Positions 4,497 to 28,416 of a stretch of DNA of 29,665 nt are shown here, one piece after another. Origin of the DNA: a virus; the IMG/VR virus record IMGVR_UViG_3300042505_000586, positions 1-29,665 of that record, one strand, 5' to 3'. The notes beneath the pieces were generated by a model. It made no database searches. It had not been told where the DNA came from and saw nothing but the letters and a program-made list of their open reading frames with translations. The position numbers were made by a program, and so were the translations under genes. Every line of letters starts with the position of its first letter. Positions within the stretch are counted from its first letter, which is position 1.

Positions 4497-5039
4497 CTAA
4501 GCTCGATTTGCTTGCTGGACAGCCTTCTCGATCAGGCTGGCAATAGTTGCTGATGCTTGCGGCCCTTTGGCGTAATAGGCCGGAGTCAAAAGGCGCGGCC
4601 ACATTTGCACATTGCGCGCGCCCACTCGTGTGCCCGTTTGCTTGTTGATGTTGCGGTTGAACGGGTGACCTGACCTGTCTTTGGAACCGGCCAAGGCAAA
4701 GATGGCAACGCTGGCCGAACTTGTGTCAAGGCTGGACCTGCCCTGCACCTCGCGGAATCCTTGAGTGACACGAGATTTGAAGCGGGTGTTGAACCTAAAG
4801 TTGCTTTTGCTGTAACTCAGGTCACGCCCATCTTTGGCAGCGATCCACTTACCCCAGCCAGCACCCCTGCGCATGGGTATCAAACCCATAGGTGGCACTC
4901 GGCTTTGCGCATCTTTCGTAATCTCCGCCGTGGCCTCTTTCACGCCACGTTGCACGATCTTCCACGCATCTTTGTCAAAACGAAAGACTGCATCAATCTT
5001 TGCAGCAGCGCCCGTGACTTTGACGTTGTACTTGATCAC
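4497..5039 (-). CDS. HK97 gp10-like head-tail/tail component (tentative)
   Basis: 180 residues, basic. The GTG start at 5039 overlaps the TGA stop (5038-5036) of the frameshifted chaperone extension, so translation is probably coupled to the -1 product. The N-terminal part (VKEATAEITKDAQSRVP) and the general size resemble HK97 gp10-type proteins, which sit at the head-tail interface or help tail completion. Those are usually encoded before the tail tube gene, whereas this one lies between chaperone and tape measure, so a different minor tail role is possible. No enzymatic motif is visible. The call rests on the N-terminal helix pattern and neighbourhood. Confidence 0.45.
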   Translation of the reverse strand: MIKYNVKVTGAAAKIDAVFRFDKDAWKIVQRGVKEATAEITKDAQSRVPPMGLIPMRRGAGWGKWIAAKDGRDLSYSKSNFRFNTRFKSRVTQGFREVQGRSSLDTSSASVAIFALAGSKDRSGHPFNRNINKQTGTRVGARNVQMWPRLLTPAYYAKGPQASATIASLIEKAVQQANRA

Positions 5040-5191
5040 CTGCCACCAGCCTTTCTTTGCTCAATGTTTCTCCAGCGCAAATATCGCTGCATTGTGATCA
5101 TCATGCGTGGAGATTCGGCGAGCACTTGACTAGGTGACAGATGGAACTCATACGCCAAATGCGCAACTAGGAAGTGGGCGCTGTCTTGTCC
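5036..5191 (-). CDS. Tail assembly chaperone -1 frameshift extension (GT-type C-terminus)
   Basis: This frame has no start of its own. It is open from just upstream of the slip site and encodes 51 residues after the slip. Joined to the first 85 residues of the upstream product it gives a 136-residue fusion. The extension reads as a genuine domain: HLAYEFHLSPSQVLAESPR, then a MITMQRYLRWRNIE helix and a basic KAGGR end, much like the T-type half of siphovirus chaperones, which recruits tail tube subunits to the tape measure. Its TGA stop overlaps the GTG start of the next gene, as expected for a real coding frame. It is easily missed because it lacks a start codon. Confidence 0.75.
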   Translation of the reverse strand, partial: GQDSAHFLVAHLAYEFHLSPSQVLAESPRMMITMQRYLRWRNIEQRKAGGR

Positions 5192-5445
5192 AAAGGGACT
5201 GGATCAGTTGAGTCCTTGACTTCAACGCCATCCAAGTTTTCGAGCCACTTGTCAAACTCACCAGCGGAACCGTCACGGTTCAACTTGTGCCATGCCAGCC
5301 AGCAGATATCTGTGAACCGAATCTCAGCAGCGAAGCGTGCAACGCTGCGATCAAACTCGCGCTCAAAGGCGACGAGATCAGGGGCCGACACAATTACATC
5401 GGCCCCTGTCCCATCGTTGTAGGTGACATTCAGGTTCATTCTCAT
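5167..5445 (-). CDS. Tail assembly chaperone, short (G-type) product
   Basis: 92 residues, translated from the ATG at 5445 with a GGAG site seven bases upstream. It lies between the tail tube gene and the tape measure, where siphoviruses encode the assembly chaperone (gpG in lambda). The protein is acidic with a conserved-looking core (RFTDICWLAWHKLNRDG) followed by EFDKWLENLDGVEV, a pattern I associate with actinophage chaperones. Near its 3' end is a CCCTTTG heptamer at 5197-5191, in the zero-frame phase C CCT TTG, allowing a -1 slip into the 51-codon extension described separately. The normal frame stops at TAG seven codons after the heptamer. Confidence 0.75.
   Translation of the reverse strand: MRMNLNVTYNDGTGADVIVSAPDLVAFEREFDRSVARFAAEIRFTDICWLAWHKLNRDGSAGEFDKWLENLDGVEVKDSTDPVPLDKTAPTS
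5191..5197 (-). promoter_or_regulatory. Programmed -1 ribosomal frameshift slippery site CCCTTTG
   Basis: On the minus strand the heptamer reads C CCT TTG in the chaperone frame, the X XXY YYZ form. After a one-base backward slip the P-site codon becomes CCC (still Pro) and the A-site codon TTT. The -1 frame has a stop two codons before the heptamer and none for 51 codons after it, so the heptamer lies within the short window where a shift can work. Confidence 0.72.
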
Positions 5446-6928: not shown

Positions 6929-7621
6929 CTAAGCGGCTTGGTAGACGTTGCTGCGGGTGTAGAACAAAACGTCCATCTTGGGTGCCCAGTCGGGCAAGCG
7001 GTCGTTCACGTATTTGGGCGCGCAGTTCGGAAACTCCGCGTAGTCAGGGAGCACCCGACCGGTGACCGCTAGGGCCAACTCGTGCGGGCTGAGCGTTGAC
7101 AAGGTGGCCACGTCATAGGTGCCCACTGGTGCCGCTGTCGCGGCCATGTAAGCCCTGAAAACGTCCTCCACATGTATCCAGTCACGCTGTTGCCGTGATG
7201 CCCCTGCAAGGCTTGTGTGCCCGTTGGCGTAGTTGATCAGTTGCGGAATGAAACCGCGCTGTGCTCGTGAGGTTGCGCCGTACACGCTGAACAGCACCAA
7301 CGTGGTGGCAAACATTGTTTGCTGCGCTTGCTTGATCCGCGAGTAATACAGGCCCGCTGATTCCTCGCCCGCGTACTGCCACCATGTGCCCGTGTTGATC
7401 ACCGGCAAATAGGTTGAGGCAACGTCCTCGTTGAACCACATGAACTGTGCGCACTCGTGCTCGTTGCGGTGATCGGGTGCAGCTAAGTGCCAGATGACAT
7501 CGGCATCTAACTCGCGCGGGAAGTTGCGGCCAATGCGCGTCACGTCGTGCCCAAGCATTTCCAGCCGTGGGCAGATGTATGACCCGAGGTGCCCGCTGGC
7601 ACCGGTGACCGCAATCTTCAT
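6929..7621 (-). CDS. NAD-dependent epimerase/dehydratase-like (extended SDR) enzyme
   Basis: 230 residues from ATG 7621, which overlaps the TGA of the glycosyltransferase gene (ATGA). An upstream in-frame start at 7648 would lie inside that gene and is less likely. The N-terminal Rossmann motif is GASGHLG (residues 7-13, GxxGxxG), and YSRIK at about 93-97 is the YxxxK catalytic pair. A QRDWIHVEDVFRAYMAA segment matches the usual substrate-domain element of sugar-nucleotide epimerases and dehydratases. It is shorter than the usual 300 or so residues. It probably modifies an activated sugar used by the adjacent glycosyltransferase; the substrate cannot be read from sequence. Confidence 0.82.
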   Translation of the reverse strand: MKIAVTGASGHLGSYICPRLEMLGHDVTRIGRNFPRELDADVIWHLAAPDHRNEHECAQFMWFNEDVASTYLPVINTGTWWQYAGEESAGLYYSRIKQAQQTMFATTLVLFSVYGATSRAQRGFIPQLINYANGHTSLAGASRQQRDWIHVEDVFRAYMAATAAPVGTYDVATLSTLSPHELALAVTGRVLPDYAEFPNCAPKYVNDRLPDWAPKMDVLFYTRSNVYQAA

Positions 7622-9624
7622 GCGCTTGCTTTTTGCACGAAGTTCCACGTCTTGCTCATATCAAAGGGCAGACCGTGGCCCTGCTCGATGATCAGCGCCC
7701 ATTCGTTCAACGCCATGTCCACGTTCTGCTCTGGCTCGCCTCGGCTGATGTAGTCATCAATGTTGGCAATGCCCACGGTGAACGCGGGCTCGGCCATGAC
7801 CTTGATCCGCCGGCAGGTGGTGTTGGCCCATGAGTGCCCGTACAAGTAGGGCACACGCTCGGCGCCCTTGGCCAAGTCCAGCGAACTGCGGCGCACCACG
7901 TTTGCCGTGATCAACGTGGCCGCAATAAGTAGGCCAGGATCAAGCTCGTGGATGCGGGCAGCGTTGCCGCACATGCCCGCAGCGGGGGTATCGGTTGCCT
8001 GCGGTGTGAGCAGAATCAACCGGTCAAAGTCATCGGCGGTTAACTCGGTGAGCACGTCGGCAATGGCGTTGGGCAAAAGCACATCGTCATCACCGATCAT
8101 CCACACCCAATCGCCACGGCCCTCTGTGAAGCCACGAAAGATGTTCGGGTCGCCGCCAAGGTTGACACCGTGGTGCTGGTAGTCCACGCGGGCAGGTGTG
8201 CCGGCCAGTAAGTCCTTGACCGCTTGCGCGTGCTCGCCGTTGGGGTCATCGTCAGAGATGATCAACTCCACCTGCGGGCTCAGCTGCGGTGCGATAGATG
8301 CCACAAGGTCAACGAGGCTGGCGCGCTTGTAGGCCGGTATGTAAATGGTCAACCGCGCATCGGTGATGCCATCGTTGATGGTGAATGACTTGCTCGGCAA
8401 AGGTGCGGCAGGTTCAGCGGCCTTGGCCAAGTGCGCCAAGTAGGGGCGCCAGTATTCGGCCCACACTCGATCGGCGTCATATTTCAACGCGTGCTGGCGT
8501 GCCTTGTCGCTGCGGCCCTTGCCGCGCTTGTAGGCGGCCTCAAGGCCATCAACGATGCTGGGGATGTTCGGGGTGTTGAACCATGCAAGTTGTGCGCCGT
8601 CCCAGTACGGCTGGCCCTCGGTCAGCCAACCTTCACCTAGCAGTTCAGGTTGTGCGCTGAAGTTATTAACCACGGCCACGGTGCCGCACGCTTGGGCCTC
8701 AAGGACAGTTAAGCCAAATCCTTCCGCAAGCGTGGCCGCAAGCAAGCAATCTGTTGCACTGAATATCGCAGCCATTGCCTCGTTCGGTATCCCGTTGTGC
8801 ATGGCGTGCTGATTCACAAACCGGTACTGCTCAGGTCTAAGGCCGCACGCTTTGGCGAGGAAGTCCAAAGCCAAACCGCCGTAGTTGCCGAACCGTTCGG
8901 TGTGCATGTACAGCCGCGCGTCAGGTTTATCCTGCGCGAAAATGGAGAAGGCGAGAATGTTCTCGGCCCATGCCTTGCGGTGAATCCCACCGGCGCCGCT
9001 GGCCTTGTTCGCGTTGATAATGGAGACCACAAAGTGATCGTCATCAAAGCCAATGATCTCGCGGCCCGTCTGACCCTCAAAGGTTCCCGTGGGCTTGTAG
9101 ACATCGCAGTCAATGGCCATGGGGATGTAGAGCGCCTTGGTTAATCCTGCGCGGCGCATCTGATCCAAGCCAAACTCGGTGACCGCAATTGGGGTCACGT
9201 TGTCCCACTGCAACACTTCCAAGACCTTGGGCGGAATCGGCTGGTGATCAACCATTGTCCAGATGCTGACCGGCACGCCCTCGTACATTTTCTTGGGCAT
9301 CGTCCAGGCATCAAAGAGAACAACGACGTGCGCGGGGTTGTCGGGGTTTTCTTTCTTCCATGATGCGAAATTGGCGCGCACCGTGTCGTTGCTGTAAGCC
9401 TCCACACCCATCGGAAAGATGGGCACGTCCTCCCACACCATCTTGGTGCCTTGCAGGCCGTAGTTGGCGTTTACGGCGATGGCGTGACCATCGCGGCTCA
9501 TGCGGTCAACTACCTGCTTGGTTTGCGTTCCATAGCCTGTGGTGGCCCACGGTGCGTTGCTGTGCCAGAGAACTGTCACCGGTGCAACGTCGGTGCTTTG
9601 TGCTCGTCTTTGCTTTCGGTTCAT
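7618..9624 (-). CDS. Two-domain glycosyltransferase (GT4-like + GT2-like fusion)
   Basis: 668 residues from ATG 9624, which has GGAG nine bases upstream; in-frame starts at 9639 (ATG) and 9645 (TTG) are alternatives. Residues about 15-400 form a GT-B glycosyltransferase of the GT4 type, with an EGFGLTVLEAQACG segment carrying the E-x7-E pair (E301/E309). Residues about 423-640 form a GT-A, GT2-type domain: TIYIPAYKRASLVD, an acidic DDD near 458-460 and IGDDDVLLP near 511-519. Both active sites look intact, so it could add two sugars in sequence. It lies between the capsid terminators and the epimerase. Likely targets are virion proteins or host wall polymers (inference). Confidence 0.85.
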   Translation of the reverse strand: MNRKQRRAQSTDVAPVTVLWHSNAPWATTGYGTQTKQVVDRMSRDGHAIAVNANYGLQGTKMVWEDVPIFPMGVEAYSNDTVRANFASWKKENPDNPAHVVVLFDAWTMPKKMYEGVPVSIWTMVDHQPIPPKVLEVLQWDNVTPIAVTEFGLDQMRRAGLTKALYIPMAIDCDVYKPTGTFEGQTGREIIGFDDDHFVVSIINANKASGAGGIHRKAWAENILAFSIFAQDKPDARLYMHTERFGNYGGLALDFLAKACGLRPEQYRFVNQHAMHNGIPNEAMAAIFSATDCLLAATLAEGFGLTVLEAQACGTVAVVNNFSAQPELLGEGWLTEGQPYWDGAQLAWFNTPNIPSIVDGLEAAYKRGKGRSDKARQHALKYDADRVWAEYWRPYLAHLAKAAEPAAPLPSKSFTINDGITDARLTIYIPAYKRASLVDLVASIAPQLSPQVELIISDDDPNGEHAQAVKDLLAGTPARVDYQHHGVNLGGDPNIFRGFTEGRGDWVWMIGDDDVLLPNAIADVLTELTADDFDRLILLTPQATDTPAAGMCGNAARIHELDPGLLIAATLITANVVRRSSLDLAKGAERVPYLYGHSWANTTCRRIKVMAEPAFTVGIANIDDYISRGEPEQNVDMALNEWALIIEQGHGLPFDMSKTWNFVQKASA

Positions 9625-9663
9625 CGCAGGGAACTCCATTCGCAAGATGCGCAGGTGTCGCAG

Positions 9664-11132: not shown

Positions 11133-11151
11133 CTTGGGTCTAGAGCCCAAG
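11133..11151 (-). other. Short hairpin overlapping the protease stop codon
   Basis: CTTGGG (11133-11138) and CCCAAG (11146-11151) form a 6-base-pair stem around a 7-base loop holding the TAG stop. There is no T-tract. It abuts the tRNA-like element and may be part of a processed junction. Confidence 0.45.
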
Positions 11152-12930
11152 TGCTTTCTCTGCTAGTTGCAACTTTGCCGCCAGCACGCTCATCGGCGTG
11201 GTGGCCTCGGCCACAACTTGCGGGGAAACTTGATCGACAACGCTGCGCAGCAATGTTGCCTGCACCTCATCTATGGTGCCCAACTGCAATGCGGTCATGG
11301 CTGCTGCCAAGTCGTCCACGTCAGTGGCTGTCCGAGCAGCAAGGCGGGCAAGGTTGCGCACGCTTGCGGTTGTCTGCGGGTATGCAGGAATGCCGGTCAC
11401 AACGGACACTTCAAAGAGTTTGGCTTCCATGAGGGTGCGCTCTGCGCCGTCATCGCTCCACTTGTCGCGCACGGTGGCAAAACCAAAGCTCATACCAGAA
11501 ATATCTCCACGTTGCGTGAGAACTCGAACGTCATTCCCTGCCGTGGTGTTGGGAAGATCAATCTCCACATAACCACCCTCAGCGCGATCATCAATGCGTA
11601 AGGTCTTGGCACGGGTTGATCCGAGCAGCATCTCATCGTTGTGGTTGACGTAGGCGCGAATGTCCACGCGAGACTTTAAAGAACGGGTGAACGCGCCAGG
11701 TGCGATGCGCTCAGTGAATGGCAGCGGCAAACTTGGTTGCCCATAGCGCCACGCATAACCGCCAAAGGTCATCCCGTCGCCATTTTCCATTGCGCGGATT
11801 TCTGTCACAGTCGCATCAAAGGTGCGAAACTCTAAGTCGCCCACGGCTGTCCTTTCATTGTTCGGTTGCCATGCGTTGCAGTAGTAACCGCCGTCAACGT
11901 ATTCATCCCAACGCTCACAAAATGCTTGATCTCCACGCACGTTTGTCTCGTCATAGAACATGCAGTTGCCACACGCGCGGCCCTCGGGCACGTCGGCCTC
12001 AAGTGCTGGCCGGTAGTTGTCCGGCAGTTGTCGCTCTTCTGTCATCTTTTCAACCTGACGCTCAAGCCAGCGGCGTGCTGGATTTGGATTCAATGGGTCA
12101 ATGCCCCACAAGTAATGTGCAACCGCGCCGGCACCTGGCCAATCAGGGTGCTTGCTGTCACGATTCTTGGGCGCATCAAGGTCAACCGCATGACGTGCAG
12201 CCCACGCATTTGTGCGCACAACTTTGTCATCAGACATCTGGCCCTCAGCCATCAGTCGAGCCTCGCGCACAGTCTTGTCCGTGAGGCCATCGCCACCGAA
12301 ACCCTCGCGGCGAAGTTCTAGCCCGCGAGCTGCCGCGTTGCGCATGTATTCGGGCACGCTGACTGCGCGCTGTTCAATGCTGCGCTGTGATGGGTGGCGC
12401 GGGTGTCCTGAGTTGAGCAGATCATTGTCACCGGTGTAGGCGGGATTTTCTGGCCGGCCCCTGCGTGCAAGGAATAAAAAGGCGTTAACTCGCGCCATAG
12501 ACCATGCGGCCCGTGACACTCCTGGCCGATGTGAGGTGGAGTAAGCACCCGAGCCTCTGCGATAAACAGCCTTGAGTGCGCCAAGGGTAACCCTGGTCCA
12601 GTCTGGCCGATCATCTGCGGCCATCTTGTCGTTGTGGTCCTTGGTTTTGTTTTCTAGCGCGGTGGTCGTTGCCGCGCTTAGTTCAATCCCACCACCTGTG
12701 CCGGCTGCTGATCCTGGCTCGTTGGTGTCACTGCCCTTGATCTGATCACCGGCAGGTGCGGGTGCATCGGCACGCTGCCCACCAGGGTCCATGCCTTCAG
12801 CAATGCTCAAGGCAACCATCTGATTGATGGCGGCTTGCTTTGTCGTGTGGCAGCCGAGCACTTCACCGTCACCTTTAATGGTGGCCCAGCCATTGCATGA
12901 CTCTGCCTTATCGGTGATGAAGTAGGGCAT
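11140..12930 (-). CDS. Multidomain prohead maturation protease (S78-like C-terminus)
   Basis: 596 residues from ATG 12930, which overlaps the TGA of the preceding gene (TGATG); a TTG at 12951 is less likely. Order: a small N-terminal domain (residues 1-47, ending in Ala-rich linker), a helical module about 103-180 (GALKAVYRRGSGAYSTSHRP), a second helical module about 220-290, a four-Cys cluster (C320, C323, C338, C351) likely to bind zinc, then the HK97 prohead protease at about 364-530. In the protease, H430 in YVNHNDE and S481 in SGMSFGF are the probable catalytic pair. It would cleave the capsid delta domain and itself. The family is usually near 200 residues, so the N-terminal two thirds are extra. 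Confidence 0.85.
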   Translation of the reverse strand: MPYFITDKAESCNGWATIKGDGEVLGCHTTKQAAINQMVALSIAEGMDPGGQRADAPAPAGDQIKGSDTNEPGSAAGTGGGIELSAATTTALENKTKDHNDKMAADDRPDWTRVTLGALKAVYRRGSGAYSTSHRPGVSRAAWSMARVNAFLFLARRGRPENPAYTGDNDLLNSGHPRHPSQRSIEQRAVSVPEYMRNAAARGLELRREGFGGDGLTDKTVREARLMAEGQMSDDKVVRTNAWAARHAVDLDAPKNRDSKHPDWPGAGAVAHYLWGIDPLNPNPARRWLERQVEKMTEERQLPDNYRPALEADVPEGRACGNCMFYDETNVRGDQAFCERWDEYVDGGYYCNAWQPNNERTAVGDLEFRTFDATVTEIRAMENGDGMTFGGYAWRYGQPSLPLPFTERIAPGAFTRSLKSRVDIRAYVNHNDEMLLGSTRAKTLRIDDRAEGGYVEIDLPNTTAGNDVRVLTQRGDISGMSFGFATVRDKWSDDGAERTLMEAKLFEVSVVTGIPAYPQTTASVRNLARLAARTATDVDDLAAAMTALQLGTIDEVQATLLRSVVDQVSPQVVAEATTPMSVLAAKLQLAEKALGL

Positions 12931-13193
12931 CAGACTGTTTGCCTTAACCAACTAATGACGTGATCACCGCTTGCGCTGATTGCATAAAGTGCTTCACCTG
13001 GGTTGATTGTGAATTGCAGAGTCTCCTCTTTCAACAACCTCAACCCAGTCGTTGTGGAAACAGCTGTGCCGCCGAGATACATGACCTTGGTGTTGTCGTT
13101 GTTGTGCACGGTCAAATAGATTGGGTTCACACTTGACCCGTCAATCTGCACGGGGGTGGCTGTTCCAACCGTTGCTTGGCCACTTGTAATCAC
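12930..13193 (-). CDS. Small beta-rich virion protein (hypothetical; possible head decoration)
   Basis: 87 residues. The GTG start at 13193 overlaps the TGA of the repeat-protein gene (GTGA), and its own stop overlaps the protease start. The sequence is built of short strands and turns (PIYLTVHNNDNTKVMYLGG, LQFTINPGEALYAIS) with a Trp near the end. Such small beta-sandwich proteins are common between portal and capsid genes, and some decorate the head. No motif proves that here. Confidence 0.55.
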   Translation of the reverse strand: MITSGQATVGTATPVQIDGSSVNPIYLTVHNNDNTKVMYLGGTAVSTTTGLRLLKEETLQFTINPGEALYAISASGDHVISWLRQTV

Positions 13194-24369: not shown

Positions 24370-24500
24370 TGTGTGTCCTTTCGCAGGTAAAAGATCGTGC
24401 GCAGTGCGGCAATGGCCACACCGCCGACCGGTGTGCCAATGTGGAACTCAGCCAGGGTTTCCAAGCGGGTAATGGTGGCGTCGATTTCCTCGGTGGTCAC
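24366..24500 (-). CDS. Small hypothetical protein after WhiB
   Basis: 44 residues. GTG 24500 overlaps the WhiB TGA; ATG 24515 is an alternative start. The sequence is MTTEEIDATITRLETLAEF, then a Gly/Ala hydrophobic stretch (GTPVGGVAIAALRTIFYL) and a charged end. The stop overlaps the next ATG. Possible short amphipathic or membrane-associated protein; function unknown. Confidence 0.55.
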   Translation of the reverse strand: MTTEEIDATITRLETLAEFHIGTPVGGVAIAALRTIFYLRKDTQ

Positions 24501-24832
24501 AACGCCACCCGCCATGCAAAGTCAAGGGCCTGGGTCCATGTGTTAGCACTGGCCTCGTTGCCTTGCTGGGTGACGGTCCACTTGTTCTCGCGCTTGGCAA
24601 CCCGTGGGCGCTTGCGCCACCGGACACGTTCAGCCGGTGTCATGCCACCGAAAATGCCGTGCTGGATGTTTTCATCAAGTGCGAACCGCAGGCAGGCGAT
24701 GCGCACGGGGCAATCAGCGCAAATGGCTTTCGCCTTGAGGTTCGCTTGGGTGAGCAGGTGCCCGCCCTCAGATGGAAACCAATCCTCTGGGTCACGGTCG
24801 CGGCACTTGGCTGCGTCCATCCATGTGGTCAT
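24497..24832 (-). CDS. WhiB-family Fe-S transcription regulator
   Basis: 111 residues from ATG 24832 (AGGGG upstream, overlapping the preceding TGA); an upstream GTG at 24856 is less likely. Four iron-sulfur ligand Cys are at 10, 38, 41 and 47 (C-x27-C-x2-C-x5-C), followed by GIFGG at 59-63, the family's G[VI]WGG turn with Phe for Trp, and a basic RWRKRPRVAKRE segment. WhiB proteins are almost confined to actinobacteria and their phages and act with the sigma factor. Phage copies such as TM4 WhiBTM4 can interfere with host WhiB and superinfection. Here it may reprogram host transcription or immunity. Confidence 0.92.
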   Translation of the reverse strand: MTTWMDAAKCRDRDPEDWFPSEGGHLLTQANLKAKAICADCPVRIACLRFALDENIQHGIFGGMTPAERVRWRKRPRVAKRENKWTVTQQGNEASANTWTQALDFAWRVAL

Positions 24833-24990
24833 CGGTCGCCCCTGCGCAACGTCCACATGGTTTTACCGACGTACACATCAAGTGTGAATCGGTTGCGGTA
24901 GTTCCAGATGAGAGCGCCGTAGTTGCGCTCGGTCTCATGGCGCTTGATGATCTGCACGCGCAGCGGCAAGTACCAATCGCGGCGGGTCAT
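24829..24990 (-). CDS. Small basic hypothetical protein before WhiB
   Basis: 53 residues: ATG 24990 overlaps the previous TGA and its TGA overlaps the WhiB ATG. The protein is basic and aromatic (MTRRDWYLPLRVQIIKRHE, then NYGALIWNYRNRFTLDVYVG) and begins like a short beta-hairpin domain. No family recognised; co-translation with WhiB suggests linked use. Confidence 0.6.
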   Translation of the reverse strand: MTRRDWYLPLRVQIIKRHETERNYGALIWNYRNRFTLDVYVGKTMWTLRRGDR

Positions 24991-27516: not shown

Positions 27517-27627
27517 ACGGTTTGGTGAATCTCGGGTCAAGGGTCCGTCGTTTGTATGCACAAAACCTACGAAATCCGTAGTATTAAAAAAAATAAATAT
27601 TGTCGGCGTGTCGCGGGGGGTGAGGGC

Positions 27628-28416
27628 ATGAATACAGCCATTGATGGGTACTTGTCCTATTGCCAAGCAGCGGGCATGAGTGCCGGCACCATCAAGATCA
27701 AGCGGTCCAAGCTGACCCATGCAGCCCGTGAGCTTGACCTGCTCACCTGCACTGAGAACGATCTGGTGGACTACCTTGCGCGCCAGAACTGGCGCCCTGA
27801 AACGCGGCGATCCTCGCGCTCGCACTTGCGCGGTTTCTACACATGGGCGGTGCGCCACGGCTTGCGGGCAGATAACCCCAGCGCCTACCTTCTGCCGGTC
27901 AAGGTGCCCCACGGCCAGCCCAAGCCGGCCACCGATGATGCGATGGAACGAGCCCTTGCGGTGGCCGATGTGACCCTGCGGGCCATTTTGCTCTTGGGCG
28001 CCTACGCCGGCCTGCGCAATGCAGAGATTGCCTCGTTGCGGATTAAGGACGTGGAAGCCACCCGCCTGCGGGTCACCGGTAAAGGTGGGCGGGTGCGCAT
28101 GGTGCATATCCACCCCGAACTGCACGAGGCATTGCAGGCGCAGATTGCCAAGGTGCGACCCAATGAGTACGTGTTTCCTGGCCGCTTTGGCGGCACGCAC
28201 ATCGGCACGTATTACGTGTGGCAGCACGTCAAAGAGGCGACCGGTGGCACGCCACCGCACCACTTGCGCCACCGGTTTGCCACCCGCGCGTACCGGCACA
28301 CGCGGGATTTGCGCGCGGTCCAGCAACTCCTCGGGCACTCCTCCCCCACGACCACGGCCAGATATTGCGGCGTTGATGATGATGCGATGGTCAACGCGGT
28401 TCTTGGCGTGGCATAA
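27628..28416 (+). CDS. int: Tyrosine integrase
   Basis: 262 residues from ATG 27628 with GGGGGGTGAGG just before it; an in-frame ATG at 27556 overlaps the dyad at 27567 and is less likely. The N-terminal SAM-like DNA-binding domain covers about residues 1-85. Catalytic residues are in order: R130 (YAGLRNAEI), K152 (TGKGGR), H211/R214 (HHLRHR), H237 (LLGHSS) and Y246 (TARYCG). It integrates the phage into the host tRNA gene matching the adjacent attP core. It is one of only two plus-strand genes and shares a terminator with the convergent genes to its right. Confidence 0.95.
   Translation: MNTAIDGYLSYCQAAGMSAGTIKIKRSKLTHAARELDLLTCTENDLVDYLARQNWRPETRRSSRSHLRGFYTWAVRHGLRADNPSAYLLPVKVPHGQPKPATDDAMERALAVADVTLRAILLLGAYAGLRNAEIASLRIKDVEATRLRVTGKGGRVRMVHIHPELHEALQAQIAKVRPNEYVFPGRFGGTHIGTYYVWQHVKEATGGTPPHHLRHRFATRAYRHTRDLRAVQQLLGHSSPTTTARYCGVDDDAMVNAVLGVA

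Follow-up and report, generated by a model that had tools for sequence, protein, structure and literature searches.

The gene at 5445–5167 on the minus strand of the window, the 29,665-nucleotide stretch of viral DNA analysed here, raises the question of whether all of its product ends at its own stop codon, or whether some ribosomes slip into the -1 frame and continue into a second domain. The minus strand of the window has a siphovirus-type order, with terminase, portal, protease, capsid, sugar-modifying genes, connector and tail terminator, then the major tail protein (5902–5483; PHROG 4574, E 1.6e-24), the tail assembly chaperone, a 180-aa gene and the tape measure protein (4487–1839; PHROG 1533, E 4.6e-116; PF10145). 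The chaperone gene therefore lies between the major tail protein and tape measure genes, with one extra gene before the tape measure, the 180-aa gene at 5039–4497 on the minus strand, for which neither Pfam nor PHROG returned a match.

The zero-frame product of the chaperone gene, the G protein, is 92 aa long, starts at an ATG, and ends at the TAG at 5169–5167. The heptamer C CCT TTG, at 5197–5191 on the minus strand, is in phase with this frame (codons CCT TTG) and could re-pair as CCC TTT. The -1 frame is closed by a TGA at 5206–5204, two codons ahead of the heptamer, and is then open over 5203–5036 on the minus strand until the TGA at 5038–5036, with the 51 codons past the slip encoding a T-type extension; this TGA overlaps the GTG start (5039–5037) of the 180-aa gene. 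The position and phase of the heptamer, the two bounding stops and the overlap are exactly as described in the initial annotation, which had proposed a hidden frameshift product at this place. Tandem slippage at the heptamer is predicted to yield a G-T fusion of 136 aa (coding span 5445–5036, minus strand), comprising 85 zero-frame residues up to ...DPVPL, followed by GQDSAHF... of the -1 frame.

Relatives were sought in IMG/VR with each part separately, and together with two GenBank phages this gave 115 loci encoding both parts, the window included and a few contigs counted twice, having been retrieved by both searches; dereplication at 90% nucleotide identity, which removes the double-counted contigs, left 56 sequences. 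The initial annotation had held that it would be contradicted by relatives with neither the heptamer nor an open -1 frame, and what was found is an extension in the -1 frame at 115 of 115 loci, nearly all with an in-phase heptamer. Among the dereplicated sequences, 53 of 56 carry a canonical in-phase heptamer (43 CCCTTTG, 3 CCCTTTA, 5 AAAAAAA and 2 CCCAAAA), with CCCTTTR present in 46 and AAAAAAA or CCCAAAA in its place in 7, and heptamer and frame are kept in relatives down to 26–30% protein identity. The search with the G part used peptide patterns ending ahead of the slip site, and is thus free of heptamer bias; it retrieved 53 loci with an extension, 52 of them with a canonical in-phase heptamer (35 CCCTTTG, 9 CCCAAAA and 8 AAAAAAA), and one, L027, with TTCCCCC. 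Across the longest other frames of the loci, 34,490 codon junctions in all, in-phase CCCTTTG does not occur and any in-phase XXXYYYZ occurs 89 times. As far as sequence can tell, the chaperone heptamer has come close to fixation throughout a large uncultured clade.

The predicted junction is conserved along with the heptamer. If both tRNAs decode the zero-frame codons before the slip, the fusion at the heptamer of the window would read Pro-Leu-Gly, and Pro-Leu-Gly or Gly-Leu-Gly recurs at the predicted junction across heptamer types. In CCCTTTR lineages the Leu comes from the zero frame. Elsewhere it comes from the -1 frame, and the lineages that would slip earlier (AAAAAAA, CCCAAAA, CCCGGAA and the C run) encode Leu-Gly, mostly as Pro-Leu-Gly, in that frame. 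Leu-Gly is thus kept whichever site is used, so that the predicted fusion aligns across the junction free of gaps; the only exception is formed by three CCCTTTA lineages, in which Arg follows Leu with an insert of several residues. The conservation of the junction supports the predicted position of the slip, and suggests that the residue at the joint is Leu rather than Phe.

The extension might instead be a separate small gene, translated from a TTG or GTG start of its own or by re-initiation past the zero-frame stop. The initial annotation had called the extension start-less, which is slightly off, as the -1 frame of the window holds candidate starts inside the extension, namely a TTG at 5158–5156, close to the zero-frame TAG, one GTG, and ATGs. 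However, in 31 of the 56 dereplicated relatives the -1 frame contains no ATG, GTG or TTG at 30 nt or less from the zero-frame stop, the heptamer stays in phase at the junction, and the conserved stretch of the extension, PLG-[ED]-x-S-x-H-W, starts ahead of any such codon. We consider a separate gene very unlikely, and a programmed frameshift the better account of this conservation.

The conservation of the heptamer at the DNA level also bears on what is being selected. Three positions of CCCTTTR are synonymously free, namely the third codon base before CCT, the third base of CCT, and the first base of TTR, and none of them varies among the 46 sequences. Since lineages with other heptamers exist, and these heptamers can evidently replace CCCTTTR, the constraint appears to act on slipperiness rather than on the residues Pro-Phe, with the DNA of CCCTTTR conserved for slipping. 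In the openly accessible literature no report of CCCTTTG (CCCUUUG) as a phage frameshift site was found, and a paper found in connection with CCCUUUA concerns, judged by its title, Giardiavirus (PMC8230311). Of the three non-canonical sequences, two have motifs of classes already known from annotated chaperones with a frameshift: in L073 an in-phase CCCGGAA lies immediately ahead of the stop, and L027 has a C run, TTCCCCC/CCCCCAA, of the twofive/fivetwo type. The authors of PRFect name CCCGGAA as the most frequent form within one of the motif classes that they define (PMC10885494). L073 fits threetwotwo and L027 fits twofive/fivetwo by name, the classical XXXYYYZ of the window site also being among the PRFect classes, all of which were inferred from annotated SEA-PHAGES genomes and not from this clade (PMC10885494).

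Two individual contigs depart from the general pattern. L109 (3001–3040) is the only relative with CCCCCTG replacing CCCTTTG, and, as one contig alone shows it, the change may be either genuine or erroneous. L050 has a chaperone with an AAAAAAA heptamer as in L049, with the ~190 nt that code for the extension in L049 absent directly after the zero-frame TAA, which may reflect either an assembly artefact or a deletion of the T part in nature.

The variety of heptamers also permits transcriptional slippage to be weighed, in which the polymerase rather than the ribosome would join the two frames. In the AAAAAAA lineages this could in principle occur. Efficient polymerase slippage needs runs longer than three, however, and those of CCCTTTG are three bases at most; furthermore, what the heptamers have in common is their codon phase, which is relevant to ribosomes and not to the polymerase. 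Slippage during transcription is accordingly a highly improbable explanation, and slippage during translation is retained.

Pairwise Nei-Gojobori comparisons of related pairs, which are descriptive only as the pairs are not independent, gave a median dN/dS of 0.11 for the extension past the zero-frame stop; the G part had 0.21, and the DNA of the extension read in its other two frames had 1.17 and 2.45. Judging from these ratios, the extension evolves as protein, under purifying selection. The same values bear on the idea that a sequencing or assembly error, or the decay of the gene, has split one continuous chaperone gene by an indel. An indel would give two frames instead of one, and phage contigs from metagenomes can carry them, but both parts are under purifying selection, and the same frame relation holds at all 115 loci, two GenBank phages among them, with a continuous frame at none (0/115). 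This explanation is, in our estimation, extremely improbable. Lastly, a chance heptamer within a chance open frame is as good as dismissed by conservation down to such low protein identity, even though 8 of the 5,879 codon junctions in 14 genes of the window carry an in-phase XXXYYYZ, and a 12-junction overlap would thus hold one by chance in ~1.6% of cases. From the window by itself the evidence for the slip site is moderate, and with the relatives added it is overwhelming.

The two parts were folded separately with AlphaFold2, using alignments of the window and loci proteins, with two rows from annotated phage records left out of alignments A3 and A4. The extension is confidently modelled as a compact domain of three helices (pLDDT 92.7), and the G part, also with confidence, as an alpha/beta domain (pLDDT 83.5) whose residues 80–88 are disordered (pLDDT below 50), the slip falling in these last residues. 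Foldseek matched mostly unnamed phage proteins, with the extension resembling part of the tail assembly chaperone of Bacillus phage 019DV002 at a probability of 0.99 but an E-value of 0.21. Searches of the PDB returned nothing above Z 3.7 by fold and insignificant matches only by sequence, and no encoded relative of the extension was found in bacterial genomes.

Neither the window nor its relatives show a clear stimulator, be it an RNA structure or a Shine-Dalgarno element. Downstream RNA structure has z-scores of 0.07 in the window and -0.51 for the wider region, and in relatives there is a weak excess (16 of 53, the control windows having 6 and 12). Shine-Dalgarno-like tetramers lie upstream in 28 of 53 relatives, compared with a background of 13%. 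An upstream Shine-Dalgarno-like element was considered as a stimulator and rejected, with synonymous resampling of acidic codons giving 24.2 (maximum 31) against the 28 observed.

Taken together, the conserved frame, the in-phase heptamers, the purifying selection, the confidently predicted fold and the kinship to annotated chaperones bear out the proposal of the initial annotation, and the gene very probably undergoes a programmed -1 frameshift of the lambda G/GT type. Most ribosomes would terminate at 5167, their product being the 92-aa G protein. A minority, holding Pro-tRNA and Leu-tRNA on C CCT TTG, would slip by -1 onto CCC TTT and add 51 residues of the -1 frame, giving the 136-aa G-T fusion (...VPL-GQDSAHF...). 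In the lambda model, the tape measure protein is contacted by both G and G-T and the major tail protein by T, in a ratio of ~30:1 (PMC5009743). By analogy, many G and few G-T molecules may coat the tape measure protein of this phage, with the T part recruiting the major tail protein, these two proteins being the expected clients of the G and T domains respectively. That slippage occurs, its rate, and the contacts with clients are points that we infer.

The distribution of slip sites suggests a wider history. On balance, we favour a scheme in which a widespread clade of uncultured siphoviruses, probably of actinobacteria, fixed CCCTTTR, with sister lineages having shifted their slip upstream by a few codons without loss of the Leu-Gly junction. 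If this is true, the clade would provide a natural series in which the frameshift site is exchanged and the product is left unaltered, apparently without an obvious RNA stimulator. The comparison indicates that the conserved tail-assembly frameshift is carried by a large environmental siphovirus group, with the extension unannotated in both matching GenBank genomes. The loci provide more than 50 divergent slip sites from nature, among which heptamers are interchangeable, and these can serve annotation as well as tests of what sequences allow frameshifting in actinobacteria.

An actinobacterial host is indicated by a WhiB-family transcription factor gene (24497–24856, minus strand; E 1.5e-20) together with the closeness of the window to Pontimonas phage phiPsal1. 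A temperate lifestyle is suggested by a tyrosine integrase gene at 27556–28416, which lies on the plus strand and runs counter to the structural genes. Between the capsid and head-tail connector genes (6929–9645, minus strand) lie a sugar epimerase gene and a fused group 1/group 2 glycosyltransferase gene, possibly for modification of virion or host-surface glycans; phiPsal1 has glycosyltransferases and a methyltransferase immediately ahead of its neck gene. The 603-aa frame at 11140–12951 on the minus strand has the prohead protease domain PF04586 at residues 384–532, and a match to DUF5824 in its N-terminal half.

The nearest named relative of the chaperone is gp16 of phiPsal1 (MG835450), which also has the nearest portal protein. 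Its gene order is the same as in the window and it too has a -1 extension, the slip heptamer being AAAAAAA directly ahead of the stop, unlike the CCCTTTG of the window. This gp16 was deposited as a hypothetical protein and its extension (L003, 3243–3344) is unannotated in GenBank, as the initial annotation had anticipated in stating that ordinary annotation would miss such a product. EBPR siphovirus 6 gp13 (JF412301) shares both CCCTTTG and a -1 extension with the window, although its G part is only ~30% identical; it too is annotated as a hypothetical protein, with the extension (L004, 1738–1853) unannotated in GenBank.

Among annotated tail assembly chaperones, Arthrobacter SerialPhiller gp10 and Gordonia Schiebs gp13 match PHROG 6889 (E 6e-41 and 5e-23 respectively), as do 36 of the 56 G parts, with the G protein of the window at E 0.0016; no Pfam family was matched by the G part or the extension. 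The relation to PHROG 6889, together with gene order, is the reason for filing the gene as a G/GT-type chaperone. Both annotated chaperones have a -1 stretch similar to the extension, weakly by E-value. They differ from the window in their order, major tail protein, hypothetical protein, chaperone and tape measure, and at the junction, with AAACCCT in SerialPhiller and no motif recognised near the junction in Schiebs.

The likeness to lambda G/G-T lies in a small gene after the major tail protein gene and upstream of the tape measure gene, an in-phase heptamer near its 3' end, and a -1 extension with a small domain of its own; in chaperones of this type the open frame past the slip is usually -1 and less often another. 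The lambda slip site is GGGAAAG, compared with CCCTTTG in the window, no sequence similarity between the two chaperones was detected, and the 180-aa gene between the chaperone and tape measure genes is a further difference from lambda. The frameshifted chaperone is a well-known device of long-tailed phages, of which the gene in the window is a solid new example rather than a new phenomenon.
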